NCBI GenBank assembly: GCA_031763025.1
Contig: JASSKH010000024.1
Location: 11,120,087-11,184,086, forward strand
DNA length: 64,000 nt
Origin: Macrocystis pyrifera
Taxonomy: Eukaryota; Sar; Phaeophyceae; Laminariales; Laminariaceae
Reading direction: 5' to 3'
Positions 16,206-42,030 of this stretch are shown here, in pieces (position 1 is the first letter of the stretch; each line of letters starts with the position of its first letter). The notes under the pieces were generated by a model that was not told where the DNA came from, made no database searches, and saw only the letters and a program-made list of their open reading frames with translations. Both the position numbers and the translations under genes were made by a program.

Positions 16206-18695
16206 GAGGCCGATGGGGCTGCCGCGAGACTTGTGGAAGGCATCCTGAGGCGCAAGTCATTTTACTTCCAACAAAGAACGGGAAAGCTGGACATGCGGGC
16301 AATCGGTCGTGTTGACGTGGACAGAGTGATCAAAGATGTTGATATCGACACGTTGCAGGTCAGTGAACTTCAAGAGTTTCTGTAGTGTTGGTTTAAGCAA
16401 ATGTCATACTTCTACCAGACAGAGTGAGGAGACTCTTCCCCGCGTTATTGTGATCCTGTATCATGTTTCCTTTGGGAAAGACTAAGTAAAATAAAAAGTT
16501 ACGAAACTCACGTTGTCGCCAGCGTCGACGCCAAACGCGTACCAGGTACATTTTATACGTTTTTGCTTCCGTATTTATATTTTTACTTGTCGTCGGTCGT
16601 TGTGCTGGTACTGAAACTACGGTGTAACGTGTAAGGCTGAACGCCAGGGAGGCCCAGGACCCAAGCGGGAGACCACTGAGTAAGAATACTGTTACACTTC
16701 CGGTGCCTTTAGTCGTGACGACCTTCTTCTCACTCCTTCTAGTTCCCTAGAGTACGCGCTCTAGGGTAGTTGAGCGGCTTTACTCTGACTGCCGTACAAT
16801 ATGTACGGTGGTTGTTAATATCGCATGACCTCATCGCCAAAAATGTAGTCCATTGTCACAGAACAGCTCAAATAACTCTGGAGTGGAAGCAAACCTCAGG
16901 AAAAATATAAAATACAATGCGCGTACAGTACACGTGATAACTGAAGCCCATCGAACACCTCAGGCAAGAAAACACAAGTGAACTCAGCGTACGTACGCAC
17001 CCGACACATATATATGTTGTAAGAATTGCAACAGAAGACGCGGGGGCCGCCTACCAAGATAACAAAACAAAATGAAACACATGGGGTCAAAATAAAGAGA
17101 ACGATTGAAGAAAAATCAAGAAAAAAACGCAAAGGAAATGCGCAAAGAGAATACGCACACTTACAAGCTCGCAGGCAGACAGCGGGGAGATGGCGACCCC
17201 CTCCCCCCCAAACATAACCCACCAACAAAAAGAAGTAGCTCTAAATGCCCACGCGAGCACGAAATAAACGAAAGAGTGTAGAAGCCAAACAGGAGGGAAA
17301 AAGAAGAGGTAAGAAATGAATACCGAAAGGCAGGCACTGGGGGCATACAGATAGGCGAGGAAGGCTGGGCGGCCTTGCGCTGACTACTTACGGTCATGGG
17401 AAGGCAGGCATCATGAAGGTGATGGCCATATCCAGACGTCAGTATTTTGGGCAGGACGCCCCTCCCCCCCCCCGCATGCGCGCATTGATGTCAACGGTCC
17501 GTGCCGCGGTTGCAACCGTCGCATGTCGATTTGCCGCTGGGCGCCTCACCGCGGCATGTCATTTCCGCGTAAACACCTCCGCCCCGTCCTCGACCCATCG
17601 AAACCATCTGCCGCCCTTCTGCGTTGCCTCGCGCTACCCTCCAGACTTGATGCTGAACTCCTTCAGGTCTTCCCCGAGGCGCTGCATCAAATCCTTCTCT
17701 GCCCCTCCTGTCTAAAGGAGTATCCTAACCCCGTATCCGCAAGACGGGATCAGGTTCACACCGGTCCCTAATCAAACACTTCACCACGCGGGGCGGTACA
17801 GTTGTCTGTACGCCCCAGTGCTATTCATAGTGTATGGTCGACAATTATCGGGCAACGCCCGCGATATCATTATTTTTACATGTATAGGAAAAACGATACG
17901 CGTCCTGTAGACTACCGTTCTATAAATCGTGCCTACCAGATACACCGTTCGCAGCTTAACTTTAGATTGTGCCTGCAGGGCCACAGCTGCTTCGCTACGC
18001 TCGAAAGCACCACACCAAGCCGCGACATTTGTTCGCCCCTGTACCAAGTCAACCTCAGACACAAACACCTGACAGGTATCGATCGGTCAGCTTCTGCCAT
18101 CTCTCGGGAAAAAAAAAACGGTGCAAGACCGGAAAGCTAAAGCTGAAGCGCGCACAACAGTATGTCCGCGTGCACTCGACGGATGTACTGGCTACCTCGA
18201 GTCCTGACCAAGAGTACACTCCTCCACCTGGCCAAGCTCTGCTCGGGTCAATCAATGTCAAGCTCAATTTCGTTAACATGTTTTCGGAAACACAGTGGTG
18301 CTTTACGCGAGTCTTGGACTCCGTATTCCACCTCGAAGTATCACAACAAGCTGTAGAGGCTGGTTCCAGCAAAACGTGTGCCTTTTAAGATGTGAAAGTT
18401 ATGTTTTTTCCCCGATGGTGGGATCTCAACCTGGTGCCACGACAACACCGTCCCAGCCCTCCTCGTATAGAGCACTGCCCCAGTCCCCCTGAAAGACAAA
18501 CCATATCTTCCCACATTTGTGCCCTCTCTCGTGTCTCGGATCCAGGGTCACCTCGAAAACATCACCTTCGCTGACGTCACAGAGGATGACTTGCGACTGT
18601 ACTCTGATCAGTGCTTCCTCAACCTCTTCCGCCTGAGCCAATTGCTGCTGGAATACCTCCTTAACGTTCAGGACACGCTAGCCACTAGCCTTGAG
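16206..18695 (+). CDS. DZIP-like N-terminal domain (exons 16206-16358 and 18546-18695)
   Basis: The first exon reads KSFYFQQRTGKLDMRAIG and then RVDVDRVIKDVDIDTLQ. This is the family pattern of an aromatic/basic strand, then I-D-V-D-R-V, then D-x-x-T-L-Q. The second continues GHLENITFADVTEDDL and later FRLSQLLLEYLLNVQDTL, matching the DZIP family's NITF and F-R-L-x-Q-L-x-x-E-Y-L-L-x-x-Q-x-x-L. The junction is in phase 0 with CAG/GTCAGT and CCAG/GG borders. The two zinc-type cysteines usual between these blocks in animal proteins are not obvious. Confidence 0.88.
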
Positions 18696-21600
18696 GTGCG
18701 TACGGAATACTCACGCGCCTAGTAGCTTTTTGGAGGATAAACCAGCGTAGAAGGGCTACTCACGTGTCTCTGCAAAGGTCACGCCTTTATTAACAAGGGG
18801 CGCATGGCCGATCGGGAGTTCAAGCTGGTTCTCCTTCGAATTACATGCTTTTTCTTTACGTGGAGGAAATATGTACATATGTTTCCTCTTGCCGCCGAGG
18901 AAATATGCACCTGGTCGTAGCTGTACTGTAGTACACCAGATCACAGTATGAAACTTGTAGAGCAGCACATAGCAGTGGCTATTTACCTGGTCTTAGCTCT
19001 GTTGTAATGTACCAGGTACCTAGAAGTACGAAACAAGTAGAGTAAAGACATATGTCGATGGCGATTTAAATGTGTCCCCTTCTTACGGATGTGGTCATTT
19101 AAACGGGACCCGGCGGCAAGTGAGCAACGTCGCTCACACGCGCCCGTCCTGGCTTGTGGCATCGTTGTGCTCACAAGGAAGCGCGCGTCGTGAACTGTAA
19201 TTTCTGTGCTAGACACGGCGTAGTATTCACCGCATATGATGCCTCTACATTGTAGCTATCTTTGTGAAGCTCGAGAGTTCTACCCACGAAAAAACACGCG
19301 TGGGGCATGCTCTACTCTCGGGTTGTTGAGTTGTCTTACAGTGGTCTTGTCTTAGACATATTTTGCAGCCGAAAAAGGCGACGCCAGACGAGACTTCGTG
19401 CGCACAATTCGGTTCGATTTCAGGCTCTGGCATTGAAGCATAGCTCAACCCGGAAGGCCGTGGATAAAGGGAGGGCAGAGCTCCACGTCGCATCTGAGCA
19501 GGTACGGTTCGCGACAAAAACAGAAATGTTGCAAGATGGGGTAGCAGGTCTGACTCGTGTGCTGCGACAGAGGCAGTAATGTTTGGGCCAAACGGTTTCT
19601 GGCCGAGGGGCGGGGGGTGGCGATACTCATTTTGGTGCTCGCCTTAGTCGTTTGAGCATGGACCACGCATTCGTTTGGAGACGGAGCAATGTTTTAGATG
19701 AGGGGGCTCCTCCACTGAAGAACCGGCCAATAAGTCATGCTTTATCGTTGGAAGACCATTGCAAATAAATTACACCATCGTTCCATAAACAACTCGTCCA
19801 CGAGTGTTTGTCGGATTGCACTATTTTTTCTATGAATCAGTTTTTGGATAACTTACTGTACTGATACTACCAATACTATACAGCTCCTTAAGCGAGGAGC
19901 CTCAGAAGGCACAAGTAGGCGCACCCCTAGCGTGCTATTAGTAGATAGGATGCGTTCTCTATCGCATTCTCGAATAAGTTTAGAAGTGACAAAACGGGCG
20001 TAGTGCCGTTCACAATTGCTGCGAGCCTGCCAAGACTTCACCACAAGTTGCATCAAATGATGCGAACGCGTTTCCACTGCGAGTACTTTAGTGAGGACTA
20101 TCTGATGGGTCATCGCCAAATTTTATCAACAAGTCACCACAAGCGACTGAATACCCCCAAACATATTTGCAGTACCGGAAATCTAATAGGAATCAGGAAA
20201 GCAGTTCCAGGCTGAATTGCATTTTTGAGAAGGGCGCCTTCTACACTACCAAGTATTTAGTGACTTCTTTCAGTACAATGAGCTCTCGAATTTATCTTTT
20301 TTCTTTAAATATCAGCCTTCCTTTAGTATTGCTACTTTTTTTAGGTGCCCTGTTTATATAGCCGATTTTTGAGTTTTCGACGACAATCCTGAAGCATCCT
20401 CACCGCATTTGCCATTTCCCCCCACCCACCCTTTTCACTCTGTTTATGCCCTCTGATTCGCCAATAGGATCGTGCTCTGAAGAGAGAGATCCGGCAAAAG
20501 CGGGCCACAATCGCACGGTAAGCACGGCAAAGCACGGCACCTAAATATTTATATTTTTAACTGTCTTTGCACATTTGCCCCGCGTTTAAAAGAAGAGTCT
20601 TGTTTCCATGTGCGACGCCACCTAGGCACAGTTCATACCCTGGACCAATATCGATTCCCACTTAAATTATGTAGATATGTCAGGGCAGAGACATCCCTGA
20701 TCTGTATGATCTGTATGATTTAGCTCACGCTGCCGGGTTGGAGCCATAAAATCTGCATGTTCTAGGGCATGTTTCCTGGGTTCGATCTGTACTATACAAA
20801 TCCTGCTCAGCACTCCAGAAAAGTAGTTTAGGGTCTACAGTAGATAAATTTAGTCGAGAAGTAGTTAGGATGGTGCATCGCAGTCCGCGGTATTGTACTG
20901 GCAATGAAATGTGATCAGATTTTTTTTAGTAGCATTTATGCATGTACTTGAATAGAGATCAGGTACTGTGTAGATACCGTTCTTAGGATGGTACGCCGCA
21001 ATTCACGGGATTATAGTAGTAATGAAATAACCCTTTGTTTCTGTGTTGATATTTATGTCCTCGCACAGATATCAGGTATCATACTGTACATGTATCGGTC
21101 TTGCGGTACGTGGAACGTTCCGGTACGTGGCACGTTCTGCATGAATTGTTTTCAACCCTTCGAAGCGACACGCCCCGTCTCGTTCGGCACGCCTATTCCA
21201 TGAGGTTATCCCGACGTCATTCGGCTGGCTGGGTGTAGAACGCTCTATTCTTTGGTGTACCTTCTTTCTTCAACGGATGGCAGTGGCCGCAGTTTGACGG
21301 TTGTGCGATCGTCTGATAGGCCACCACACCTAAACTCAATGTATGGACTATTCGCGCCACACCTACACGTGAAGGAGTAGACGAAGGTACTATCTTAGCT
21401 CTTGCCTCTCCAGATGCTCTTGAGAGAGGGGGAAACTAATCCCCCATCCATGAGGAATATATCGGAACGCTTCCACAACAATGGATAGGAAACGGGGATA
21501 CCATGACATGAACTCAAGGTTACGTATGTTGCGTTCACCGCTGGCTGGGTGCAAAACCAACACGCAGATACGAGCAGCTTTTGGCACTACCTGCTCCGCC

Positions 21601-24600
21601 CGCTGGAGGGACTTCATCTGGGAGCAACCTAAAACACGGGAGCAGCTTGCAGGCGTGCCTGACCTGTGGCAAAATGTTCACCACCACCGAATTCTTGCAG
21701 CAACACATCGTCAGAAAGCATGCCTCCCGCGTCGAGACCGGCACTGACACGAGCACGTGAGCAAACGATAATGTGCAGCGCAACTCGCTGAAAAACAGGA
21801 TGGACAACACTCAAGGTTGTCCTACATTTGGACATCGTCTTGGATTGACGGCTTGAATTACTGCTGTAGCACCAGTACGATGTAAGTGTGCTTTGAGCGA
21901 GGCATGGTGTATACTAATAGTATATACGATAGGGGTGCACCTCAAGTGGAGGAGGCGAGCTCTCTACTCTCAAGCAGTCATCCAAACCCGAGCTTTGAGA
22001 AAATAAACGAAAGGTCAACCTGATGAACTACCCCATGACCTAGGTGTACGACAAAACATACCGCTATTGTTGAAAACAAACGATGTTGGGTACTGTACTG
22101 GACTCCTGGTACCTGTATGTATGCAATTCCTCGACTGAGGAGCTGCGCCAGTCACAACAACAAAACAACAACAAAATGCCTCCAAAAGTGCTACCCCTAT
22201 CCCCCATCGTCGCACGCGCCTGGCGTTGTATGTGATATATATATTATGTGGTATGTGATACGTTACCTGGTATATCGTAGGTTTGCGAATGAGATTAGGT
22301 CGATCGGGGGCCGGGTTATTTCAACGATATCTAGGTATATACCAGTATGCACTACCAGGTACGTGGTTTAGCTCGAGATCTCGGCGCAACTGCGTTTGGG
22401 TGTTGGCCTGTTGGACGTTGCGACGTGTAGAAGGGTTATATCGGTGTTTGCTGTACAAAATCGGCGGTGAAGCAGTCTATCTCGGTACAACAACGATGTG
22501 GCAGTGTGCATGGGGGTGCTGATTGGGGCATAAGCATACTCCAGGAGTCACTGGAGGAAAATGTCGTCGATACGCCTGGCTCTTCCCTCCAAAGTGATAG
22601 CCGTTGATGACGACCGCGATGGTGTTGATGATGACGATTTTGATTCTGATGTTGATGATGATGATGTTGTTCTCAAGTTCGCTCATTTCTCTGAAATCTA
22701 GTCCATGGTCACAATAACAGGCTATGCACGCGCGTCTCTTCGTTGCCCCCCCCACCACGCCTCTCTTTAAACATCGTATATACGCACGTAACCTTCTCTG
22801 TCTTTTTCGTCGCGTCGACTCAAACGCTTCTGTTATTCTTGCTGAAATGGGAGAGACAGTCCAGAGTCAGGCGAGGCAGAGAACAAAAGAGTTGAAGCGG
22901 AGAAAGCCATGTTCCCGTCGCAACTCAGGATTTTTGTGCAGGTGAATGCTCCTGCGGTATCATGCTCGTCCGCATCGAGTGAGGGGTGTTGTTTCACCTC
23001 CAAATTAGGCTCGAATAGTGTTTCTTCAGTGCTCAAACTTGCGGCGTGATGCATGCTATGGCAAGGGCGCATGAATAATTTATTCAATGAGGCTCCTTAC
23101 CTGATGAACTCCATGCTGTTAATATTGCCCTACAGTAGTAAGTCACCCAAAAACATGCTTTGGGAAAAACGACACGATTAACCCGATGAGAAATCCGAAA
23201 AAACGTTATGAAACACGAATGAGATTCGGACGGCATTGGATAGTTCTTTCAGCAGTATTGAATAGTTATAGTTCTTCCAACGGCATTGGGTAGTTTTTCC
23301 GACGGTATTGGACAGTTCTGCCAACGGTATTAGGTAGTTCTGCCAACGGTGTTGGGCTTTTCCAACGGTATTGGGTGGTTGTTCCAACGGTATTGGGTAG
23401 TTGTTCCAACAGTATTGGGTAGTTGTTGAGGATAAAATAGCCGCGCCGGATATAAATAGTTGGGTCAACAAGTGCTACCAGGTACCCCTATTGTAACACG
23501 CGTCTTTCTCACTGCTCTCACTGCTCTCACTGCTCCCACTGCTCCCACTACTCTCGCTGCTATCACTACTCTCACTGCTATCACTGCTCTCATTGCCGCC
23601 TGTCTCAAACCGCACGGTCCAGGGCTGATGAAAGAAGCTTATCCCGCATTTGTCCAGCAAATCTTCGCACTACGTAGAGCCAAACTGTGCGCACAAAGTG
23701 ACGGACCGCTGCCTTGAGAGTCTGTACATAGTGTATGCTGTCCACTATGAACGCTGCTGTCCACTTCCCATTGGTCGTAGCTGGCAAACGTAGACATTCA
23801 ATCCACTGTGCAGACTTGTCGTGAAATTTGGTACGTCTCGTGGAAAACTTACACATCAAATGGTGAATCACTTTACACCTACCTGCAGACAAACACGGGT
23901 CAGTGTCTGGACATGATGGTCCACAGGGACGCTACGATTGCGCAGCTGCGGGGATATATCGATTCGACGGCGGGGTTTACTGCTGCGGGCGCGTCGAAAT
24001 TCCTTGTGTACAGGCAAGGAAAATCGGGGCGGTTTTCGATTGCGATGCCGAATCCGTGTCGTTTGTGGGCCTGGCTAGCCCTGTGCCTTGAAATTCTATT
24101 AGAAGCAGCTGCTCAATCCAACACAGATAGTTGATTGTATAGCCATAAGCCTTGAAATACTATTAGCAGCAGATGCTCAACCCAACAGAGAAAATCGACT
24201 TTGAACTTCAGTCGGCGCAATAGTGGGTTGCTGGTACACGATGACCAGCTGTTGATACTGTACTAGGTACGTGTTAGAGCTGTGAAGCGGCAGGATTACA
24301 CGACTAATAACAAATCGGTAGGTGCCGTCAGCTAACTAACTGACCTCAGTCGGAAAGTCGGCTATCGAAGCCAGCTAACGGCCAGTCGACTTTTTTTTAG
24401 GCGAAAAATCAACTCTTCCGGTCGAGGGAGCCCCGCCCGATAAAGAAAATGTATCCCGCATTCAACAATCCTTTCTTCACATATGAAAATCCTTTAATTC
24501 GGATGGTTGGCACCTCCAGGGAACGACCAACTATTATTGATAGTCTGACTGTAGTAATTATGAGTCTGACAAATAACTATTAATAGTTGGTTACGCCGTG

Positions 24601-27600
24601 CCGACTCGCAGCTCTAGTATTGTTTGCTTGCGAACACGGAACCAAGAGTCTCCGACGCATCTTCGCCTGAGTACCGTGATCGGAATGCCTAATCATCTAA
24701 TCATCAATACACCTTCCTTTGTGATGTGCTGGAATCGATGCTGATCGGCAGAGGATTGCGCCTTCACGAGGGCCAAACCCTGAAGGAGTGCAACATACCG
24801 ACAGACAGCCAGCTTGTGCTACTTGACAGCGAGGTATGTTTGTGTCACGCACGGTTGCCCCGCCCCCTCCCATCACCACCACCACCGCCACCGCCCCTGC
24901 CCCCCCCCTATATGAGATATATAGGTTGGGTTGCTGTCGGTTGACAACGACACTGTAAAACAAGCCGCTCACTACTTGAGCTAGACAACCAGGATATCGT
25001 TTTTGTTTTGGCGGTCGGTCACAGCTCGAGGTGGAGTTAGATCATTTGTGCGGGGTGGAGAACCTTTACTCCTCTCAAGGGGTATGATCGCGTCACGTAC
25101 ACGGTAGTGCTTATCGTGAGGCACACAAGAGGCAGTTACATAGTACTCCCATTGCTGTCCCTGGAAGTGGCCACACCGCAAAATAAATGAACTCATTGAA
25201 GCTGTCATCTATCTGCAAGTCCGCATCACAAGCGGTTCTTAGTACGATAGAGCTCACCCTTCATGCGACTCGCCAAACACCTCAAGGCGCTTCGCGCTTG
25301 GTGCAAGCAATGCCTGCCTGGTCGGTGGAAACGCGACATGCTCCGTCCCGGCACTGTAGGGATGCGAGGGTCTATGGTCATACGACTACGGCCATGCATG
25401 ATATCGAGTACACCCCCCTCCAGCTCCCGTAGACATACAATATTTATGTATATATATACAAGTTGGCGTCCGTTGGCAACGACGCTGTAAAACACGTCAA
25501 TCGCTGTGAGAGTTAATCAGGGTCTATTTTTTAGTGTGTTTCGGCGATCCCCATGGCTGCTGGTCAATTACAGATCACATCGTATGGCGTGAAGAACCTT
25601 TACTCCGCACAAGGGGGGTGCTCGTATCAACATATTGTGTTTATGGCCAGGCACCCACGAGGCAATTTTAAAGTATATCGAATGATCTCGTGCCGGTCGG
25701 TATCATGGCGCTCCTTGCTGCACCACAAAATATACGACTCTCATTGTGCTGGAAACTTTTTTGTCCTCCAGGTGAAAGAGTCGGCGGCCGGTGGAGGGGG
25801 GACAAAGGACGAGGAAAGGGTGATTCTTGACAAAAACGGCGCCGAGGAATCAGCGGCTGTAAAACAGATGTCCACCCTTGTAGATCTCATGCGGCAGCAG
25901 ATGGAGTGGACCATGAGGAGCGAGGATGGTCGGCGCGAGCAGGGCCTTGGGGCGGCAGAGGCCCTTGAGACAAGGATGCGAGGGATGGAGGTGACACTTT
26001 TGGATTTTTCCGAGCCGTGCTACGGCAGGTATTGCAATTAGGGGTTGAAAGTAGGCGATCAACTGTTGACCCCAACCATTGTAGCTGATCAACCATTGCA
26101 ACTGAGGAGCTACCCAATGTATTCGGCTCGATGTGCACTGTTGAGCAAATACGTGCGAGAGGAGACGGTACTTTCACTTGGCTGACGGCAATTTTCCCTT
26201 TTTTCCTTGACTGATGCCAGACTACTACAATAGGTTTAGTGTGGAACACTCGGATCCACACCCTTGACCGACGCATGATTTCCCTTGAATGGCCGCCTCC
26301 CGACATACTTCCTTGCTTTTCAGCGTAATCCTTTACACATCTGTATAGCCCATGGGGTTAATTATGTATCAGGCTTGCAGCAGCTTGCAAAGTTATTTTG
26401 TCAAAGCCGGTTGTTGGGTGGGGTACTAACAGTAGTAATAGTACCAATAGTACTACAGAGCTCCCCCTACGTGAGGAGCCTCAGAAAAAGACTGCAGTAG
26501 GTGCGTACAGTAGGTGCTACAGTAGGTGCTACAATAGGTGCTTACGGTAGGTGCTACAGTAGGTGCTACAGTAGGTGCTACAGTAGGTGCTTACAGTGGG
26601 TGCTTACAGTAGGTGCTACAGTAGGTGCTTACAGTAGGTGCTACAGTAGGTGCTTACAGTAGGTGCTTACAGCAGGTGCTTACAGTAGGTGCTTACAGTA
26701 TGAACCCCTCTACTGCACCACGCGTCTCAGACACTACTCCCATCGTGGCATCGGCCGTACGCAAATTATTCGATAGAAACCGTATGCGGCCTTTCTCGCT
26801 CGGCACGTGCGGCTTACATGTATACCGGTACCTGGTATTGGTAATCCTCCGCCGAATTGGTAGAAATATACCAGGTAGCCGACGGTTCGCACGACCGCGT
26901 GGAAACTCCAGAGATGAGGAGCGTAATATTTCCGTGATTACACGTAGCATTAGCGGCCGACCGCTTGCACGACCGCGTAGGAATTCCGGAGATAACGAGC
27001 TCAGGATGTGCTGCATTCAGATCGGAGTCGTGGTTTCGTGTCAATCGATCCATTTTGTACCCCCAATGCCATGTTACGCTTAAAACGTGGCATTGCTTCA
27101 GGCCCATTAGTTAGCGAAATTTTCCATTAATAATACCAGCCACGCATCAGATCCATTGGGACCACCAGCTGGGGCAGGAGGCCTCATCCAATCCAGTACT
27201 TGCTATGAATGATCGGCAGCAGAGTGAAATAGTACTGCAGACAAGTTGAATTTATATCGTGTATTGTGCAACGATTTGGCGCAGGCGTCTTTGCCGAGGA
27301 GACTGGAGGAATTTATGGAGGAGAGCGTTGGCGGCCTCAAAAGTTCGCTTTCGAAGGTAACGTGACCCCAGTACCAGTGATATTGTGTCAGGGTTAGGTT
27401 ATGTCATAGGTATGCACCAGCATTACGACTGACACTGCTTCGCTCGCAGACCCTAAGTTCCTCTGAATGCATTGCAGATGGTTTCCAACCCAGTGGGTGT
27501 ATTGCTGTAGGCGAATGAATACTGCAGCCCTCCTATACATATAGCCTATACGCATACAGATAGGCATAGCCTATTCACGTACAGTGCAGTAGTTCGAAGA

Positions 27601-30600
27601 GGTACTGTAGTAAAGCGACAGGTATGTACCGCGTAACGTTTCCTGCGGAAAAATACCCGGTATTTTGAGTTATAAAAACAAATATTCGCAGTATTATACG
27701 TAAAGAGGCATTGGCGCCGCTTTTCGCGACCGGAAATCATGTAAACTCGACCAACCACGTCGACACGTTACACTATTCATAGTTTTGATATCGTACAGTA
27801 GTGAAAAGCCAGCACCATACGAGTAGAGAGCTGTATTGACTGTGGCTGCGTGTTAGCTGACGAAAATATTATTTTTTGTCCCCCACGAATGACGCATGCA
27901 GTAGTGCTCGGATGTCACATAGTCACATATTTGGTATCGTTCTTGCCGCCATGGACAGTGGAAAAGGTTTCATAGCCAGTTTTTTTTTTCAGGACCAAGG
28001 GCTGGCGCTATCGAAACGTCGCCCCGATCAACCACAGGCCTTCAAAAAGGAAAACAATGGTCAGGCGTTTCCGAAGCAACAGACACAGTGCATTGCACTC
28101 TTTTTCCTTAACAAGCCGGATTCAGGTGTTCCCAGGTATGTCGGTACAAAATTCCGTGCCAATATTTAAAGAATTGACCGCGTATAAACAATATCAAGTA
28201 GAACGTAACGCTAAAAATCGATTCCACATTGAAACTAGGTAATTAGAAGGCAACGACGAAAAATTACACATTCCATTGTCCCACACAAAAGTAATTTTTT
28301 CCGCGCTGTTTTTTTCGAGTCAGACCCTGAAATTTTGCACACGTGTTGTATTATCCCTCTCCAATCTTTTCAGGAACCATATATTTTTTTCTTTTGCTGA
28401 AAATGCTGGGTCCAAGGAAGTCCAAATCTCCTAGAAAGTCCGAAAAAATGCCGAACCCAACCATCAGGCGAAATAAGCAAAACACCGTTCCTCGAACCTG
28501 CGAAAAGGGTTGATAGAAGACGTGCACAGTTTCAGGGTCTGATTAGAAAAAACGGCGTGGACTTTGCCTGGCGAAGAAATGCAGGTCGTTTAACATGAAC
28601 TAGCCTGTAGGCGTTCACCGGTAGTTGTCTAGGTATATATCACAGTCGTAGTTATGTGCAGTGCTTTGCAGACTTCTGCGTCTTCGTGATTGACTGTTAA
28701 TGGCGCGGTTGTGGCTCGAAATGTGAGGTACAGTAGACTGAAGGCACTGAAGACATAAATCAGTTAGATGGTTGGTTGACCCACTGCGCCACGCAATTAA
28801 CAGTGTAGTCAGTGAAGTCAATAGCAGTAAGTCAAGTAACACCCCCTAGCATTTGACTCCAATCAATGCCCAATACTCAGGCATTGGGCGATATGGAGGA
28901 GCTACACGCCAAACGATCCAACGCTGGGGCCATTCAAGATGACGAGGACGAGAGACGAAAAGGCGGGAGGAAGAGGTGCGCATTGAAGAAAGTAGAAAAC
29001 CAATCGGTAAAGTAAGATGCTTGACCAAAAATTGAAAAATGAATCGTTGTCGGGGAGTCATCCCCGAGTTGCGTCGGGCATTTTTCGACCAAATGCGCGG
29101 GCTTTAAAGGTAGCATGCTCATACGCTTCAATCGACAAGCCTTTGAAATTAAACCTTGTCACAGAATAACCACCAAGTTGCGAAGCGTACCTTCGACCAA
29201 TAGCGCGACCCACAAAGGTGGCATGCTCACACTACGCGCATTGAACGGCATGCTTATAAAACTAAGCGTGGTCAGAGAGTCACACCCGGGTTGTGAAGGG
29301 GGCTTGTATTCGACCAATTGCGCGTTGCCATAAAGGATAATCGTAGCGTGCTGATGTTCATTGAACGCTTCCGGTGCAGGAGAAGTCACGGCTGGCATTG
29401 CTCGCGGCTGACGTGGAACGCGTTTCAAAGGAAAACGCGGCGTTACTGCAAGAGTTAGCCGACGCCAAGGCCTCTGCCGCGCAAAGTGCCGAGAGTGTCC
29501 CCTCTGCAAGCCCTGCCGAAGTGCCCAGAGCACACGTGCAGACCATCACTGCAGCACCATTTCCAGAGCAGGTGCGAGTATACGCCTACCATAATAATCA
29601 GTTCGTGACGTGATGCACAACATATCGACCGACAGTACGTGGAGTTTAGTCCCATCACCCGTCTAGGAAGAGCGTTATATAGCCCCTTTATGTTAACATC
29701 ACACTCCCGTTATGAGGACAAATCACTTGGAATTAATGTCAGATTCAAGCTTCTGCACAGCAGTGCAGTACTACAAGGGTTAAGCAGTACAAGCAGCATC
29801 ATCATGCCATCATGCTGCGCGCGTGCCGCACATCTCCTTATCCCCAGTTTTAGTTCGGATACATATACAAATATCCCCTATCCCCTACCCCAGCATCCAG
29901 CGCTATCATATCATATCATACCATTCCTTGTGTTGCAATGGTTGCAATGTTTGCAATGGTTAAAATGACGTATACTACTGTAGGAGGTAGCACCCGATTC
30001 TTCCTGAGGTAGATCTGCCCCAAAAACTGATTGTGAGAAAACTAAAGGGGCGCTTAACCTCGGCCTGTCGTGGGTGTTGTACCAGGCAATAATTCTATTG
30101 TGAAGCAACAATGAGATCAACAATATCGAGTAGTTGAAATGGTTGAGGAACCTCGTCAGTCACATTTGCTGTGGCCAAAACATGCTACCTGGTACTATTC
30201 AATACCAGGTATTAGTTTAGTCCTTATCCTTGTCGTAGGACGCGTTCAATAATAATAATGGCCACATTTTTTTCATCTGCTTTTCCCACTGACGCACCAA
30301 AAGTGTTCATAGTAATAGCAGTATTTTACCAGTTTTCTCGAGATAGGGTGAGCAGGGGGGAGAGGCCGCCGTACTTCGTCCTGTAGTTCACTGGGCTTCC
30401 TTGCCAACGGCGAATACATTTCGACCGCGGCTACTGTACCCCTCGACGGCCTTGGAAGGCATGAAGTCGGCGCAATAACCGAGTATATCACGAATACAAA
30501 CACCACAGTAGGAGGGAAGAGGGGCCGATGGGCAACGACTCCAGCGGCGGCTAACGGAACCTTACTTTCAGGGACCGGAGAGAGCCCTAGGCAGATTTTT

Positions 30601-33600
30601 CCCTACCCTTACGCTCGGGCCCGAAGACTTTCACGCACGCGGTCTGGGTGTCTCTCGATCCCCAGCCATCTAACTTCCCCATATGACTATGACTTCGCAT
30701 AGACAGGCGAAGACCGCAATAAACTGACCCTGTTCAAGTCAAAACCTGGTATATTTCTCGACCGGTCAGCTCGTGAGAGAATCCAACTTCAGCCCCATAC
30801 AATTGCTTATTCAAGTATTTCAGCATGTGGCAGCGCAAGCCTCACCCTACCCCACCGCTAACGGCACACTTGATATCAAACTATACCGTCGTCACTTTTC
30901 TCACCCAGGCACCAAAACCGTCTCGAGAAGGTCCCGTGCCCGGGCCGCTCATCGAAGACCCTCCAAGACCCCAACGCAAAGCATCTTCATGGCATCTCGT
31001 GAGTTGACGCATGCCGTATTGGACGGCAAGAAGCCAGTGCATCGAGTAGTACTGAATTGGTATTGAGCAGCAAACCTATTAATACTGTGTCATCCATTGG
31101 ACAGATCGCGGATTCCTAGTTCATGATATATGAAGACATCTTTCAAGACAACAATATTCCCGATATGGTATGATGTACAGTAGCTGGTGCTGCAGGGTGG
31201 GACAATATAATCTGTTAATATATGATTTACGGTAGCACATGTTTCCTGGGTTGGATATGTACTGTATGTGCAGATAGATCACACTGCAAAGCCTCTCACA
31301 ACAGCAGGTGAAGAACTAGGTCATCTACAGTAGATAGATAGATCATGATCTGTCCGCGTTATGTAATATTTTCATTATTATGGAATGTAGCAGAACTTAG
31401 AACAGAGAGGCTCCCGTAAACAGTGTTGCGCTTCAGTGAAGAAACAGTACCAAGGATGGCTGCTACAGCATAAACGGTAAGTGCGCGTAATCAAATAGGG
31501 ATGACCGTTTCTGGATTTTTCCCTCGTGATTATGCCTGTCGCCGTGACTCTATATAGAAACGCCACTCTAGGTGGGTACAGTAGAAACCCAATACCAATA
31601 TAAACCATTTAATAGATATCACGGGGCCATCTTACGGCATGAACGTATCATTGTGTTATCGCAAAATCTTACACACTTGTGCCACATGCTACCTTAAACC
31701 AGAGCTTTGAATCGATGGTAAAAACAAAAAGGCACGGAGCGTAGACTCCAGCCGTATGCGCAAGTTCTATAGATGCACCGTTCCCACTCCGTCGTGTCGT
31801 GTTGCGGTGATCCCTTCAATATTGCCGCGATGTCCCTGCATTATTCTTGCCGTAAATGCGTCGCGCACATATATACATACCATCCCTGGCATCGCCGAAA
31901 AGCTTCGTGCCACGTTATGGAGCTGCTATAGACTCGTAGTTCGCGGCATGTTGCAGCGCTTCTCGTACATGCTATAATCGACATTTTTTTGTTCATTTTC
32001 TTCGATTTCGAAGACGTTCCCGTCCCAGGGTTCGAGGCGCGCCGTCGCCATCAAAGTGCCTCGAAATGCCAACTGCGAAAGCGTCTGCGAGCGCATCGCG
32101 GAGAAGCTGGACGTAGTTGAGGCCAGAGTTGTCCTCCGGAACAAAAGAGGAGGTGAGGTGTGCGGTCAAATTGAAACCTTTTTTCCCGCATCCCATTTGT
32201 TATATTCGTCATTCATTCTCGTGCTCCCTCCCTAGTCGTGACTCAGATCCGGGGTCACACAGTATGATAGTCTCTCCTCCCCCCCCCTTCCCCCGACTAC
32301 GCTACGCGCCTTGCTTTGCTATTGCGATCAGGGTTCACCACTTTCTCCCCGCGTCGAGTCGCGCCGAATCGTGTTGACTATCTCTCAGCTCCCGGCCAGC
32401 ATCGCTGAAACACCCGAGTGAGAGGGTCACCGCGTTGACGCACTGAAGAGATCCCTAAACAACTATTAGAGAGATAAATACTGAGACACCGAAAACAGCG
32501 AGTGACTGCTGTGGGCGATGTTCACAGAAACGAGCGGCAGTATGTTATATACCCGTCGCAAGGTCCATGCCCTCCTAGGAAACCCGGGGATGTACCCAGA
32601 AAGTCCCCTGACGACTGCATATGGTGTGTGGGGGGACCGCGCAGGGTATGTTAGCTCGGACGTGTCAAAATAAGAGTAGTACTGTATCAACGAGCTGCGA
32701 TAGTACTAAGGTACGTGGAAGTTGCCCCGTACCCGTCGAAAGCTCTCAATGCCCCGTGTTCGGCACGCAGGAACACCTTCAAAACCGTTTCAATTCGAAA
32801 GCTCAATTTGGTTGGAGTATGCGTAATGTTATCAACGTGGGAAGTTTGCGATAAGTCGGTGCCTCGGAACGTGGTGTAGGGTTCACATCAAGTACTCCAC
32901 ACGTCGGACAGATCATGTACAGATAATCATCTACATATAGATCATCTAGATCCTACGAACCTGCCGTCATGATAAGTTTTGCAGGATCTGCATAATACAG
33001 ATCCAACCTAGGAAACACGTCTTGAATAATGCAGCTTATACGACTCCCAACCGGCAAAATGAGCGAGATCATTCCGACCGAGAATGTGTCTGCCCTGAAA
33101 TAGCTAGTTAAGGCAGCAGAAATAGCACCGCAGTAGGAGGTGATCTGTCCGATGATTGAAATACTTTAGCTTTTTTTTTTCTTAATCCAGGCGACGGTGC
33201 AGCTGCCGACCTTTCTGAATGTAAAGGCAGACTGCCGCCACGCCGAGAAAAACACACTTACATCGATGCAGATTCCTTGATGATCGCCTACGGCGACAGA
33301 AAAAAGAGACCCTGGTTTTGATTTTGTTGGTGGGAAATAAATCAAATTACATTCGGCCAAAAAAATAAGCATCCGTCAGAGACTCATCCCGCGGTGAGGG
33401 TACTTAACACTTTTTGGCTCAACATTATTCTGAGCGGTTGGGCTTCTGAAGTCAGTAGCTATTAGTATACCGATTAGAATGATATGATACTTTTACTGAT
33501 GCATTTGTTGTAGAACTATTACGGGGGAACATAGTAAATAGGACCAAATTTTGTTAGTAACAATATTAAAAATATAGGTTTTTGTCTATACCGTAGGTCC

Positions 33601-36600
33601 TATTTACTATGGACCCCCCGTAATAGCGCATAGAAATCTTGGTCGAGTTGCGCGAATAAAACGTTCTTCGAAGTTAGTCATGCTTCGGCTGGAATATTGA
33701 GCTCCTCGTGTGATCAGCTCAGACACTAATAAGATACTCCTAACCTGGCGTTGGTCAACTTGCGCGTCCATCCGCTTCAAAATCGGCACCAGGCGCAATT
33801 CTTCCGCTAGAGACGCTTTCGGGTGAGCTCCAGCGCTTGCACGAGGAGGAATGCCTCAAGCTGGAGGTGCTGCAAGGGACTGTTTTGTCCGATAATGTGG
33901 TAAGGGAGCGTAGATACACACGTCCAACAGCCTGATGATATATACATACCTGAATGATATGATATGCATACTCCGAAGTATTTCTAAAAGTGGAATGGGT
34001 GAAGCTGATGAATTATTGGCTTAAGCTTGTGTTAAGGAACTGTTATGTTTTGTGGAACACGATGTATTTTCTAGAAGAAAGTCACGTACTTCGCCGAGGG
34101 TACACGATAAACAACTAAGCGCTACTGTTTTTTTCCGGGTATCTAGATATTATCGGGGGGGGTCATACGAATACCAAGTTGTCTTCTTTTTTCATGCGTG
34201 CGGAAATCCCACCCCCCGCTGGTTTGCTTTCATCTGACATTACTGGGAGCGCGGTGTCGTTTTCGCCTTGTCGCCATGTACCCTCATGTACCTTCGACTT
34301 TCACACCACCAAAAGGAATGTCATATCATGGGCAATCGTATAATCATACCATCCACTGCGAAGACGATAAGGTAGCTCTTGCTAGGTGGATAACTGTAAC
34401 TGTCGTCAACTGTTTGTGTAGGGTGGAGAACGCAGTGATATTATTTTTTATATTTTTCGGAGATACAGTAGTAACCCTTTTTCGAAGATTTTCGGTCGGA
34501 AGGCGCGGATCTCATAATCAACATTGTTCTATAGGATATCCGGCTTCACCTAGGTCAAAAGGGTTATAAGGCATGCCCTACCCGCTCTTTGTTAGGCGGC
34601 CGTAAAAATGAGAACTCCCTTCGGTCGAAATCACACCAATAAGCGCTTGCGGGTTGGTGGACAATCGCCATGACATTCTGGTGAAATCAAAAATAAATAT
34701 ATACCGCACACATGTTGACTTCGAGCACGAAACCGTATCGTACGAATTACGATCCGCCAGGTGGACGGCCTGGTGGACTTCTACGAGCAGCACGTGCCGG
34801 CGAATGCAAAGGTGAGCTACAAGGACAGCCAGAAATAGTCGCGGCGGGACGCAGGGGTTGCTCTCGACTACATAGCATACCTCTTGAATCATGCGTAGGG
34901 TGGCGGTACTATCTGTACAGTATATCTAGAACAGAATGTAGTAATAGTAGTAGTACTGTAGTAGTTGTAGTAGTAGCAGTGGCAGTAGTAGCAGTAGTAG
35001 TAAGTAGTAGTACTTCGAAGTAGTATTACGGGCGCCCATAGCAAGCCAGAACCCGCGATGGACCCAAAAACCTTGTGTCCCCATACTGTATGTGTTCACA
35101 CCGTGTTTGGTTATCATTTCACGTGTTACCCCGTATTAGTTGTATTAGTACAGTATTGATAGTTGTAGATGTTATCGGGGATCACAATTACTCTGCTTGG
35201 CATACAGAAGCACGACAAGGGTAACCTATTGCACAGAGTATATATGAGCTTTGCCCGGGTGCGATATTTGGCGCGGAAAACGCCGGAGTGCCGTATGTCA
35301 CCGCCATATTCGTTACCATATGCCTTTTCCACCCAAAACGTTTAGTGAAGAAAACAAAATAGTGTTATTATCACATGGTTGAAGTGCTCAAAGTGATGCT
35401 GCGAAGTAGGACTATTGCACGGGAGCAATACGAGTAGCGCTATTTCATGGAGTAGTAGCAGTATAGGCGAGGTTAGGCGAGGACATGCAGATACCGTCAG
35501 CGCCGTCGCCGGTAGTATGTTCAGGCAGTACATAACATCTACACGTCTTATTTTTCGTCGGTAGTATGCCTAGCCAGCGCACAAAGTGTACGTACACGTA
35601 CTAACTTTCGTCGTGCTTTACCGTCTCCTCTATGCAGGCGTCTGGTGTCATCAGCCGATCGATGGCTGAGATAGACGAAACGGCAAAACGGCACGCGTTG
35701 GGTGAAAGGAACGGCATGGGGACAGGGACAAGAGCGGGCATGGGGACAGGGCAGGTGTTTCGAGGAAACGAAGGCGGCGACGCCACCGAACACGCCGAAA
35801 AACAGGTGTCTAAAAGTTTCTGTTATTACGGGTGTGCATAGTAATACATAGTAATACATAGAAATACATACTAATATATAGTAATACATAGTAATACATA
35901 GTAACACATAGCAATCTTAACCCACGATGAACCCCAAAACCATGTAATTACCCATGTGCACACACTATACTTGGTTCTGAAATACTATTAAATCTGTACT
36001 ATCAATAGTGTGTTCTCCCCTTACAGCCCCTTTGGGACTTGGTTATAGTATGGCGTTGAAAGAAATGGCCAGTGTCGTAGTACCAACCATCTCCTATCCC
36101 CTATGGTGTCAGCGCGACGTACAAATACTGCAGTAAATATGAACAGTATGAATAGTACCTTCCAGTGCGCGTATCGTGCAAGTCATCGCATTGGGCTCGA
36201 GTTTCGGGTGCTACTCCATGTATATATATGTATTTATATATGATGCCCTGCCCCAGTACTGCATCTAGGTATGGCCATGCTGGGCATTTCGTATACTAGA
36301 TATACTCCAGCAAGTTTGGCCAATGCTGTAATTGTCAGTTTCGTTCAGACCTGCTTTATCTCTGAAGTTCCGGAGGGGTTGATCGATGCCCGCGCAAGCG
36401 CGCAAGGCGCTGTCTTCAGGGCACGTAAGGTGCATCTCGTACCAGGTGTCTATCACGATGCCACGACAGCGCAAGCCCGAGCGGTTGAAGCCTTTAACAT
36501 GTCAAGTTTGTAAGGTATAGGTACCTTGTGACTGATAACTCAGCCCAAGTCCGCTGGCTGGTGCCGCTTAGGCCTCCTCCGCACGTTCACTGGAGCACCT

Positions 36601-38911
36601 TCTGCTCAGCTTGAAACAAGAAGTGTACAAGATACAAGGCATATGACATGATGTACGAAGTAGGTTACGAATGCGTCAGCTGTAAATATGACTGAAAAAG
36701 TAGTCGGTACTTAGCTTTGCAAGCTACCAGGGTTATATCATCAGGGCAGCTGCATATTTGTTGTTCAACCTATTGCATAAAAAAATGAAGAAAAAAACCG
36801 TTCTCCATCGTCCGGGATCGGATCGCACCATCACAGGTTGACAACATCCGCGCGCAGCTGTCAGCGACGCTCACCGGCGGGCGCCGCCCATCCGACAACG
36901 CGTTTCAAGCGAAAAGGAACAGCATCAGCAGCAACACCCCAGGTTTGGGGCTCTCAGTGCACGCTAGGAGAGTTAGTGGCGGTTTCAGCGATGCGAAAGG
37001 GAACATGTTGCGCGATGGCGAAGGAGAACATGCAGACTTGTCGCGGGCGGAGCTTGAGAAGGCTGTGGAAGAGCGGAAACGGGCAAGGCCTGCAGGCATC
37101 GAGCGCCAGGTTCGTCTTTGTTTTTTCTAACTTTACCGGCGCCAAAACAATAGAGGTCCCTTTTGAGTTGCCGAAAGCGTCTGCCGTATGCCGTGCACCG
37201 ACGAATACAAGTTGAGGACAGTCGAAAATACGCTGTTGGGCGAGTTCCTAGCGACAGCTGTACTGTATTTGCCCTGAGGTATTCCTCCACTCCAGTGACA
37301 ATGGAGTGTGTACTGTCACCACGGACTAGATTAGGGAGATTATGTTAGTTAGTGTTTAGATAGTGTGAGAACAAACGAACAAACGAACAAACGAACGAAC
37401 GAACAAACCTTTGCTGTAGCTTGTCCTGTTGGCCTGTATGTACTACTGTACGATCGTAGTATGGGGGGTGTTTCTATCTGCTTCGCTCTACTCGTATGGT
37501 ATATGCATGGTTGAAACAGTACCATGGTTAGAGCAGAGCCATGGCATGTGCGAGGTAAAGTACCCTGCGACTACGCGCCCCAACACTTTTTCGAAACATG
37601 TCAGTCAGAAGGCAACGACCGGCTGAAGTTGCCACAACAGCACCGTTGTGTACTAAGGCATAGTTCAGTTGACACACAACACAATTATATTGGCCCGAAT
37701 GCAGAGTGTGGTGAGCTCAAGCTTAAGCTGTATTGTTACCCATCCGCCGGAGGAAAGAACAAACCCAGCGTGACCTACCGCTGGCTCGTCTTGAAGTTGA
37801 GCAAAACCAATAACGTACGTGTAGACTGAACGTTACAACTATTCGCGTGGTGTTTTCACAGCCACGGTTGACCATCATGTATGTGACAGCACTTTACTTT
37901 AGTCCACGATCACAGGCACACTTTCTTCGATGTGAGCCAAACGCAAGGGTCAAGATACAGGCACACTTTTTATGTGATACTGCAGTAGTACTGTATTCGC
38001 CTCCTCTTGCCTCGATGCTTGTGCCGACGTAACTGCGACCATGTGATAACAAACAGATGGACAGTGTGTCGATGTCGATGGAAGAACAACTCAACATTCT
38101 GCTGGAGGAAGCGGAAGAGGAACTCGAACAGCTCGAACAGGACTCCCTTGGGTAAGAAGAACGGAACGGATTGCGTTTTCATGGCAGTGTACGTAGTGCC
38201 ATAAACGTAGTAGCGGTGGTTCAAGAGGCTGTGAATCAATCTAAACGTCGCAGCGATGGTTGAAGATATAGTGAGTCAATCGAAACGTAGTAGCGGCAAT
38301 AGCAGAGGCGGCGAGCCAATCGGATCGTAGAAGCGATGGTTCCAAGAGGGGGTGAGCCAATTACATCTTAGGAGCGACAGTCGAGGAGGAGGCAAATCCA
38401 ATCAAAACACACCAAACGATTATCTCCCCGTCCGCACCCCACCCTCGCTGGTTGTCTTCGTCGTCGCCCTTTAACGGCATTCAGGAGCGAAACCTACAGC
38501 TCCACCGTCCCTTCAGTAGATGGAGCCGTCTCATCTTTTGCAGACCCTTTGGAGAGCCAACTGCGGAGTGCGAGAGACGGCTGCGGGAGTGGCACGCACG
38601 AAGGCGACGGTAGTAGGTCACGCGCCAATGTGAGGAGGAGAGCGTCTGGCACAAGTAGCACCCACGCGACCAGTCGTCGGCGTCAGAGCGAGAGCAGCGG
38701 AATAAGCAAAACCCTCGCCCGAAGGTCAAGCAGGGCAAGAGATGAGTACGAAGATGTCCCGAAAAGCGACTGGGGTAGGACCTTGGATACTACGGTCTCA
38801 ATTCCAGAGGGCCCGGAGGAGAGGGCTGATGAGCACGAGGCGAACGCCTCACTTGAAATGATGGATGATCCCATTGAGATCATGACGAGCCGGGGGGGGG
38901 CGGCGGCGTGA
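16206..38911 (+). CDS. DZIP1/Iguana-like ciliary protein with ubiquitin-like domain, 18 exons
   Basis: By family, DZIP1 acts at the basal body/transition zone in ciliogenesis. Exons: 16206-16358, 18546-18695, 19424-19501, 21653-21756, 22854-22941, 23889-24013, 24752-24833, 25772-25990, 27285-27356, 29380-29571, 30909-30998, 32029-32152, 33793-33899, 34761-34811, 35638-35805, 36837-37109, 38057-38151 and 38485-38911 (TGA). All phases agree, giving 865 codons plus stop. Order: DZIP N-terminal domain (residues 1-100), C2H2 finger (129-151), ubiquitin-like domain (about 185-257), coiled-coil-prone segments (about 280-420), a possible second beta-grasp unit (about 453-520), acidic coiled coil (about 700-722) and a Ser/Arg-rich tail. 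The start codon lies upstream and is unresolved. An ATG at 16151 directly before a GT would leave only a 52-bp intron. All introns are GT-AG except one GC-AG. Confidence 0.87.
19595..19690 (-). mobile_element. LINE 3'-end fragment
   Basis: On the minus strand it resembles the 3' end of the LINE at 42085-43070: a GCGTGGTCC block, then a spacer, then GAGTATCGCC and a C-rich tail. It lies in a DZIP1-like intron, just after the exon at 19424-19501. Confidence 0.45.
20676..20840 (+). repeat. Dispersed repeat family D, copy 2
   Basis: It shares CAGGGCAGAGACATCCCTGATC, AAATCTGCATGTTCTAGG and TTTCCTGGGTTCGATCTGTA-like words, in the same order as the copy at 5403. Just after it, a diverged block (GGATGGTGCATCGCAGTCCG / GGATGGTACGCCGCAATTCA) occurs twice, near 20869 and 20986. 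Confidence 0.6.
21653..21756 (+). CDS. DZIP1-like C2H2 zinc-finger exon
   Basis: The exon starts after TTGCAG and reads CLTCGKMFTTTEFLQQH then IVRKH, an exact C-x2-C-x12-H-x4-H finger. A single finger after the N-terminal domain is the DZIP1 arrangement. It leaves in phase 2 at AGCAC/GTGAGC. Confidence 0.92.
22600..22675. repeat. GATGATGTT trinucleotide-like repeat
   Basis: Degenerate GAT/GTT triplets in a DZIP1-like intron. Confidence 0.6.
22854..24833 (+). CDS. Ubiquitin-like domain across three DZIP1-like exons
   Basis: Exons 22854-22941, 23889-24013 and 24752-24833 join to give LRIFVQTNTGQCLDMMV..., the ubiquitin beta-1/beta-2 hairpin pattern. A helix follows (ATIAQLRGYI), then FLVYRGLRLHEGQTLKECNI (equivalent to the ubiquitin I-F-A-G-K-x-L-x-x-G-x-T-L-x-x-Y-N-I stretch) and SQLVLL as the last strand. 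There is no terminal di-glycine and the chain continues, so it is an embedded, non-conjugating domain. Phases agree at both junctions. The second intron is GC-AG. Confidence 0.88.
23236..23425. repeat. Minisatellite, about 22-bp units (CCAACGGTATTGGGTAGTT)
   Basis: Eight or nine head-to-tail units with slight changes, in the intron that splits the ubiquitin-like domain. Confidence 0.8.
23505..23612. repeat. CTCACTGCT nonamer repeat
   Basis: About a dozen CTCACTGCT/CCCACTGCT units in tandem, in the same intron as the previous array. Confidence 0.8.
25073..25432 (-). repeat. G-tract repeat family B, copy 3
   Basis: Reverse orientation. It matches 3139-3500, including the GTGGCCACACC end and the block with GCTTGGTGCAAGCAATGCC. 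It is bracketed by two similar stretches (24907-24990 and 25440-25520), each with GACAACGACACTGTAAAACA or a close variant. This suggests a local duplication around the insertion. Confidence 0.65.
25772..25990 (+). CDS. DZIP1-like coiled-coil exon
   Basis: 73 codons between TCCAG and GAG/GTGACA. A glycine-rich start (AAGGGGTKDEE) is followed by charged, heptad-like sequence with LVDLMRQQMEWTMR and EALETRMRGME. Likely a coiled coil in the middle of the protein. Confidence 0.8.
26493..26700. repeat. 12/13-bp minisatellite, GGTGCTACAGTA / GGTGCTTACAGTA
   Basis: About 16-17 head-to-tail units with two length variants, in a DZIP1-like intron between exons 25772-25990 and 27285-27356. The unit contains CTACAGTAG-like half palindromes seen throughout the window. 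Confidence 0.9.
29075..29365. repeat. Three-copy tandem repeat, unit about 110 bp
   Basis: Units begin TTCGACCAAATGCGCG, TTCGACCAATAGCGCG and TTCGACCAATTGCGCG. Each carries a GCATGCTCA/GCGTGCTGA block and a TTGAAC block. The last unit runs up to within a few bases of the acceptor of exon 29380-29571. Confidence 0.65.
31190..31345 (+). repeat. Dispersed repeat family D, copy 3 (partial)
   Basis: It keeps CATGTTTCCTGGGTTGGATATG and the terminal CAGCAGGTGAAGAACTAGG region. The 5' part is eroded. Confidence 0.45.
32029..33899 (+). CDS. DZIP1-like exons 12-13: possible second beta-grasp module
   Basis: Exons 32029-32152 and 33793-33899 join in phase 1. The sequence reads RRAVAIKVPRNANCESVCER, IAEKLDVVEARVVLRNKRGG and then AILPLETLSGELQRLHEEEC plus LKLEVLQG. 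The strand-strand-helix-strand rhythm, with L-R-N-K-R-G-G before the last strands, resembles ubiquitin-like or doublecortin-type folds. I cannot name the family. The exons themselves are well supported by phase and borders. Confidence 0.7.
32910..33105 (-). repeat. Dispersed repeat family D, copy 4
   Basis: On the minus strand it reads CTATTTCAGGGCAGACACATTC-like sequence, GTGTTTCCTAGGTTGGATCTG and GGCAGGTTCGTAGGATC, colinear with the other copies. Located in a DZIP1-like intron. Confidence 0.6.
33516..33626. mobile_element. Foldback MITE family A, copy 2
   Basis: CTATTACGGGGGAACATAGT on the left and ACTATGGACCCCCCGTAATAG-like on the right, with the shared AAATTTTGTTAGTAACAATA centre. Located in the intron before DZIP1-like exon 33793-33899. 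Confidence 0.8.
34933..35022. repeat. GTA trinucleotide microsatellite (GTAGTAGTA)
   Basis: Imperfect GTA/GTAGCA runs across about 90 bases in a DZIP1-like intron. Confidence 0.8.
35024..35955. repeat. Diverged repeat pair (35024-35100 and 35826-35952) with an ATACATAGTA array
   Basis: Both members start TATTACGGG, continue with a CATAGYAA block and end in CCCGCGATGGACCCAAAAACC or CCCACGATGAACCCCAAAACC. In the second, an ATAGTAATAC decamer array (about 35838-35910) is inserted. They may be worn relatives of MITE family A. The DZIP1-like exon 35638-35805 lies between them. Confidence 0.5.
37372..37410. repeat. AACAAACG tandem repeat
   Basis: About nine ACAAACGA-type tetra/octamer units in the intron after exon 36837-37109. 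Confidence 0.8.
37605..37814 (+). CDS. Candidate optional (cassette) exon of the DZIP1-like gene
   Basis: 210 bases open in phase 0 between TGTCAG and AATAAC/GTACGT, exactly compatible with the phase-0 junction it interrupts (37109 to 38057). It would add 70 residues with blocks such as ECGELKLKLYCYPSAGG and VTYRWLVLKLSK. The composition (Tyr, Cys, aliphatic) differs from the charged flanks. It could be a real alternative exon or a captured fragment of another element. Confidence 0.35.
38485..38911 (+). CDS. DZIP1-like last exon, Ser/Arg-rich tail
   Basis: It enters in phase 2 after TTCAG, reads SETYSSTVPSVDGAVSS, then an Arg/Ser-rich stretch, then an acidic part (EERADEHEANASLEMMDD). It ends TSRGGAAA followed by TGA. 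It is low in complexity and probably disordered. Confidence 0.8.
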
Positions 38912-41790: not shown

Positions 41791-42030
41791 GGGGGGGGGG
41801 GGGGGGGGTACTCATTATCATGCATGGCCGTAGTCGCATGACCCTCGCATCTCCATCATGCCGGGACGGAGCACGTCGGGTTTGCACCGACCAGGCAGAC
41901 ATTGCTTGCACCAAACGCGAAGCGCCGTGAGGTGTTGGGCGAGTCGCATGAAGGGTGAGCTGCATCCTGTTAAGAACCACTACGAGGTATTGAGGCGGAT
42001 TTTCTTGCGTATGGATGACAGCGTGAATGA
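41791..42030 (+). repeat. G-tract repeat family B, copy 4
   Basis: A run of 18 G and then TACTCATTATCATGCATGGC. All family blocks are present through AGGCGGATTTTCTTGCGT and the end near TGACAGCGTGAATGAA. It is immediately adjacent to the 3' end of the LINE at 42085. Confidence 0.75.

Follow-up and report, generated by a model that had tools for sequence, protein, structure and literature searches.

Can a protein of the DZIP1 family, whose members work at the base of cilia and flagella, carry a ubiquitin-like domain of its own? The question is raised by a locus of the giant kelp Macrocystis pyrifera, in a stretch of 64,000 nucleotides (the window; contig JASSKH010000024.1, positions 11,120,087 to 11,184,086 of the forward strand in assembly GCA_031763025.1), whose own numbering is used below. 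A first-pass annotation had proposed that three consecutive exons encoding a ubiquitin fold run here in phase with an upstream DZIP N-terminal domain and C2H2 finger. The analysis somewhat favours the view that the locus holds one 18-exon gene, with its first exon missing, that encodes a paralogue of the DZIP1 family, 878 amino acids (aa) long or more, containing an internal ubiquitin-like docking module that would serve at the flagellar base.

Nine exons on the plus strand (exons 1-9, 16206-25990) have consistent splice sites and together give a single open frame of 376 aa, all acceptors being AG and all donors GT except for one GC after exon 7; the proposed phase is thereby borne out. A Dzip-like_N domain (PF13815) occupies residues 19-136 of this protein and is matched over the whole profile, 1-118 of 118, at 115 bits (E 2.4e-33, cut-off 27.9). 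It starts in exon 1 (16206..16358) and has the rest of its core in exon 2 (18546..18695), exons that score 36.7 and 54 bits in a genome search with the profile. Exon 3 (19424..19501) adds a later part, backed by splice sites, frame, Pfam and coding score, and the match ends inside exon 4 (20468..20517), backed by splice sites, Pfam and coding score; both are helical by eye. Exon 5 (21568..21756) encodes the finger CLTCGKMFTTTEFLQQHIVRKH at residues 174-195, where the spacing C-x2-C-x12-H-x4-H is intact in translation and PF00096 stays under its threshold, with 17.3 bits where 25.2 are required. The next three exons encode the ubiquitin-like domain, with a charged linker and the first strand in exon 6 (22860-22941), the middle in exon 7 (23889-24013) and the end in exon 8 (24752-24833). 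The ubiquitin profile PF00240 matches residues 231-299 of the 376-aa protein at 26.6 bits (E 5e-6, cut-off 25.4) and the 105-aa piece that holds the domain at 30.0 bits (E 4.4e-7); the two other ubiquitin-like Pfam models listed give 17.5 and 17.0 bits. A sequence search of the PDB agrees, since among the matches listed (60 of 296) every one is ubiquitin itself, a fusion of it or an engineered variant. Exon 9 (25772..25990), supported by splice sites and coding score, is charged and helix-prone by eye. The domain order is Dzip-like_N, C2H2 finger, ubiquitin-like domain and helix-prone tail. The Pfam comparison recommended by the first-pass annotation for the joined protein returned two of its three models, the finger staying under threshold, and the span it gave for the ubiquitin-like exons, 22854..24833, needs one adjustment: 22854 is a frame-compatible alternative acceptor of exon 6, seen by hand, that adds two residues.

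Could the ubiquitin match be a chance product of exon choice, or the remains of a decaying pseudogene? The exons were initially chosen by eye and one donor is GC, both of which speak for such an origin. Against it stands a comparison with random joins, scored by a local model built on seven sequences of ubiquitin-like domains. The joins were open, phase-matched and built from three pieces of 70-140 bases with AG/GT ends (5,000 per strand); the best of the 10,000 reached 11.1 bits, far below the 35.7 bits of the real three-exon join, and each of the 11 top-scoring decoys listed includes parts of the true ubiquitin-like exons. All 18 exons of the gene are open. The G+C content at third codon positions is 0.656 in the ubiquitin-like exons and 0.655 in the DZIP exons, and codon-position composition is nearly equal. 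A codon-position score trained on exons 1-5 is best in the annotated frame for 13 of the 13 other exons, these having been preselected by eye as open; the lowest score among the 18, that of exon 10, is reached by 11% of the decoys on the plus strand and 17% of those on the minus strand. An origin by chance or decay is thus very improbable, and the assignment of the three exons to a ubiquitin fold stands. The GC donor itself, at 24014, lies in the strong context CAG/gcaagg, and a second DZIP locus of this genome (C199, described below) may by eye use another (HVQ/gcaagc); introns of the GC-AG type may thus be nothing unusual here.

Do the DZIP and ubiquitin-like parts belong to the same gene? 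A pair of adjacent genes on the same strand would also explain the locus: a short DZIP gene ending at the TGA at 21758-21760, which overlaps the donor site of exon 5, and a gene for the ubiquitin-like and helical parts that begins within exon 6, around the ATG at 22909. If unspliced, exon 5 does run directly into that TGA, and the ATG lies just ahead of the domain (MFPSQLRIFVQ). The gap between them contains AATAAA at 22002 and TATATAT at 22236, short words of a kind that is common, and a short DZIP protein is plausible, as C. elegans DZIP-1 is given as only 156 aa with the domain and the finger in the part of PMC11200010 drawn on here. However, the exon 5 donor is good (CAC/gtgagc) and in phase with exon 6, and the 15 scored codons of the 16 before the ATG (22861-22905) are open and coding-like, at 0.193 against 0.028 and -0.205, on a small number of codons. 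At the C199 locus, moreover, the finger exon runs past the finger into a charged tail. Exons 6-8 amount to 289 bases, and the loss of all three, or of any single one, breaks the frame; exon 5 joined to exon 9 runs into stops. Two genes are an improbable arrangement on this evidence, and all 18 exons appear to form one message, as we infer from their joint frame.

Exons 10-18 extend the frame to a TGA at 38909-38911 and bring the protein to 878 aa, with its 5' end missing; a search by eye upstream of 16206 did not find the first exon. With regard to a coiled-coil region after the finger, exons 9-17 look charged and prone to form helices by eye, and exons 10 and 11 give weak SCP-1 and bZIP-like matches below cut-off. 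Exon 10 (27285..27356) is helix-prone by eye, and exon 11 (29380..29571) is so before turning into a linker; an alternative end of exon 11 at 29604 gives a protein of 889 aa. Exon 12 (32029..32152) and exon 13 (33793..33899), the latter with its end, belong to a stretch in exons 11-13 (29380-33899) that could be a second beta-grasp-like region, RAVAIKVPRN...CESVCERIAEKL...ARVVLRNKRGG...LKLEVL. Three versions of it score 13.3, 14.2 and 14.0 bits with the RA model (cut-off 21) and 13.3, 13.7 and 14.0 bits with Ufm1 (cut-off 27); an earlier hand join that omitted exon 13 reached 18.6 bits with RA, also below cut-off. The local ubiquitin-like model gives the stretch 2.4 bits, and a PDB search with it returned nothing useful among 5 weak matches. 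A second beta-grasp domain in these exons is a possibility only. Another continuation of exon 12, in a stretch near 33192, was tried and dropped, as that choice ends in a stop and exon 13 carries the frame on. Exon 14 (34761..34811), exon 15 (35638..35805) and exon 16 (36837..37109) rest on frame, splice sites and coding score; exon 17 (38057..38151) contains the acidic stretch MEEQLNILLEEAEEELEQLEQ, and exon 18 (38485..38911) encodes a Ser/Arg-rich C-terminus. A Pfam scan of the 878 aa found no UBA, BAG or RING partner domain. The introns of the gene hold tandem arrays at 23269-23424, 23507-23596 and 26495-26700, with periods of 22, 9 and 13. The window has no unknown bases and a GC content of 0.45-0.55 in steps of 2 kilobases (kb), and an Rfam scan of it gave no match at gathering scores.

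Is the extra domain a general property of kelp DZIP proteins? A search of the genome (537,376,219 bases in 223 contigs) with PF13815 yields five exon matches at three loci: two in this gene, two at C199 (C199:1099068-1112339, loci L020-L022) and one at C211 (C211:19226876-19227097, L018), which is more divergent. The N-domain of the window gene is identical to that of C199 at 33 of 71 aligned positions and to that of C211 at 22 of 81, and the latter two share 23 of 69. Hand-joined with a third stretch, the two C199 N-domain exons score 76.8 bits, and some 4.7 kb downstream of the second, on the same strand, L022 contains a finger, KVCETCGKAFSSDFFLSKHIGRRH (PF00096 18.1 bits, below cut-off); we infer that these exons form one gene. 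The frame of this finger continues into its charged tail with no ubiquitin-like part. When frames of at least 15 aa on the gene strand were scanned with the local model, no ubiquitin-like exon was detected in 40,000 bases at C199 (best 2.7 bits) or in 35,001 bases at C211 (best 4.4 bits); as unspliced frames, the window's own exons 7 and 8 score 10.5 and 8.4 bits with this model, and exon 6 only 1.0. A search of the genome with a 737-aa part of the protein places 16 of its 18 matches in this gene, the other two being the N-domains of C211 and C199. Among the 48 genome matches to PF00240 the split domain of the window is not found, and other split ubiquitin-like domains could escape in the same way. 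Taken together, the scans of the two loci and the own-genome matches suggest that, within the range searched, the extra domain is a feature of one paralogue, side by side with a form that lacks it. The first-pass annotation had called the arrangement lineage-specific; the C199 locus agrees with this to the extent that a comparison within one genome allows. A dispersed repeat, 'gcgagggtctatggtcatacg ... catgcatgatatcgagtacaccccc', was seen by eye on either strand and with variations at about 10530, 25340-25420 and 41810-41950, and also at the C199 locus (L022, near 4890). Elsewhere in the window, a plus-strand frame at 57945-58373 resembles a PH domain (PF00169 17.4 bits, cut-off 25.1).

What could a ubiquitin fold in this position do? 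Aligned with human ubiquitin, the kelp domain is identical at 22 of 74 positions, in an alignment that crosses two introns and is ungapped apart from two extra residues after position 38 and one after position 70. The Gly-Gly end is missing, with no counterpart of ubiquitin residues 75-76, and the chain continues as DSEVKES; because of this, the domain should remain internal and not be conjugated as ubiquitin is. In this respect it is comparable to the fixed ubiquitin-like domains that shuttle or docking proteins carry. Of the surface positions of ubiquitin, I44 and V70 are conservatively replaced by V and L, but L8, K48, H68 and K63 are changed to N, L, V and T. A purely structural fold, stiffening the protein or mediating self-contact with no relation to the ubiquitin system, would fit the low identity and these four changes, and beta-grasp domains are often plain protein-contact modules. 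The better match to the ubiquitin model than to the two other ubiquitin-like models, and the hydrophobic character kept at positions 44 and 70, argue against it, and a structural role alone is a tentative possibility, on the unlikely side.

The preferred reading, a docking module within a DZIP1-type protein, can be set beside two known systems. Like the non-conjugated ubiquitin-domain proteins Rad23, ubiquilin, BAG1 and parkin, the kelp protein has one such domain in a larger chain and no Gly-Gly. In those proteins the domain is mostly N-terminal and paired with UBA, BAG or RING; in the kelp protein, by contrast, it is internal, beside Dzip-like_N. The likeness to DZIP1, DZIP1L and Iguana lies in the full-length Dzip-like_N, the single C2H2 finger after it and the tail that is helix-prone by eye, and the difference is the ubiquitin-like domain between finger and tail. 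The sections of PMC11200010 drawn on here describe animal and worm DZIP1/DZIP1L as having a DZIP-like domain at the N-terminus and a single C2H2 finger, with no mention of a ubiquitin-like domain, and PMC4091656 speaks of 'no other defined domain', both consistent with what the first-pass annotation had said of the animal proteins. Worm and mammalian DZIP-1/DZIP1L is placed at the basal body as a transition-fibre protein (PMC11200010), and fly Dzip1 in a transition-zone complex with Fam92 (PMC6904220). A table entry in PMC12159753, citing Schwend 2013, has vertebrate Dzip1 preventing the proteasomal loss of the ubiquitin-ligase adaptor SPOP, an independent hint that the DZIP family touches the ubiquitin system. 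In sugar kelp, according to PMC6742357, flagella-related gene expression is highly male-biased, and eggs in this order too are capable of forming flagella; the main text of that paper contains none of the terms DZIP, iguana and DAZ-interacting. Because of the location of DZIP1 in worms, mammals and fly, the SPOP entry and the flagellar expression in kelp, the most likely role would be that of a scaffold at the flagellar base that retains, through its ubiquitin-like domain, a partner drawn to ubiquitin folds. By analogy with mammals and worms, the N-terminal part would be the anchor, fixing the protein to the basal body of the flagellum or to the transition fibres. The ubiquitin-like domain would then be a fixed docking module, as in Rad23 or ubiquilin, for a partner that recognises ubiquitin folds, such as a proteasome subunit, a p97 adaptor or a ligase. 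This partner would stay at the base of the flagellum as spores and sperm assemble or remove their flagella.

Several observations weigh against a flagellar-base docking protein of this kind. The mechanism is a proposal made from sequence, and the comparison of DZIP loci covers this one genome. In the 878-aa protein, the PF00240 score falls to 25.3 bits, barely under the cut-off of 25.4. The acceptor of exon 6 is purine-rich. Skipping exons 6 and 7, or 7 and 8 (207 bases), keeps the frame and destroys the domain, so that transcript forms with no working ubiquitin-like domain are possible. Typical ubiquitin receptors may fail to bind the kelp domain because L8, K48 and H68 are not kept. A search for FAM92, the DZIP1 partner family, gave 0 matches, which is not proof of absence.

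How much of this is new? Literature searches found no work linking DZIP1 to a ubiquitin-like domain, nor DZIP1 to a brown alga; the one stramenopile paper that came up with DZIP1, on the genome and secretome of a downy mildew, does not enter the argument. When viral contigs were scanned with the joined DZIP/ubiquitin-like protein, there were 8 pattern matches and 0 relatives. The gene may well be in the giant kelp annotation already, and the novelty would lie in the extra domain within the known DZIP family.

A bolder proposal, which we regard as rather unlikely, is that a brown-algal lineage made one DZIP paralogue into a scaffold whose internal ubiquitin-like domain physically couples the ubiquitin-proteasome or p97 machinery to the basal body or transition fibres, perhaps with a second beta-grasp domain in exons 11-13. 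If true, such a scaffold would allow proteins to be turned over locally when spores and sperm make or resorb their flagella. The gate of the cilium is where DZIP1 proteins are located, and the vertebrate Dzip1 reportedly affects the turnover of a ubiquitin-ligase adaptor. The second DZIP locus, with no detectable ubiquitin-like domain, offers a built-in comparison, and in an alga that bears flagella only transiently, a natural DZIP/ubiquitin-like fusion would make it possible to ask directly whether protein-disposal machinery is brought in by the ciliary gate.

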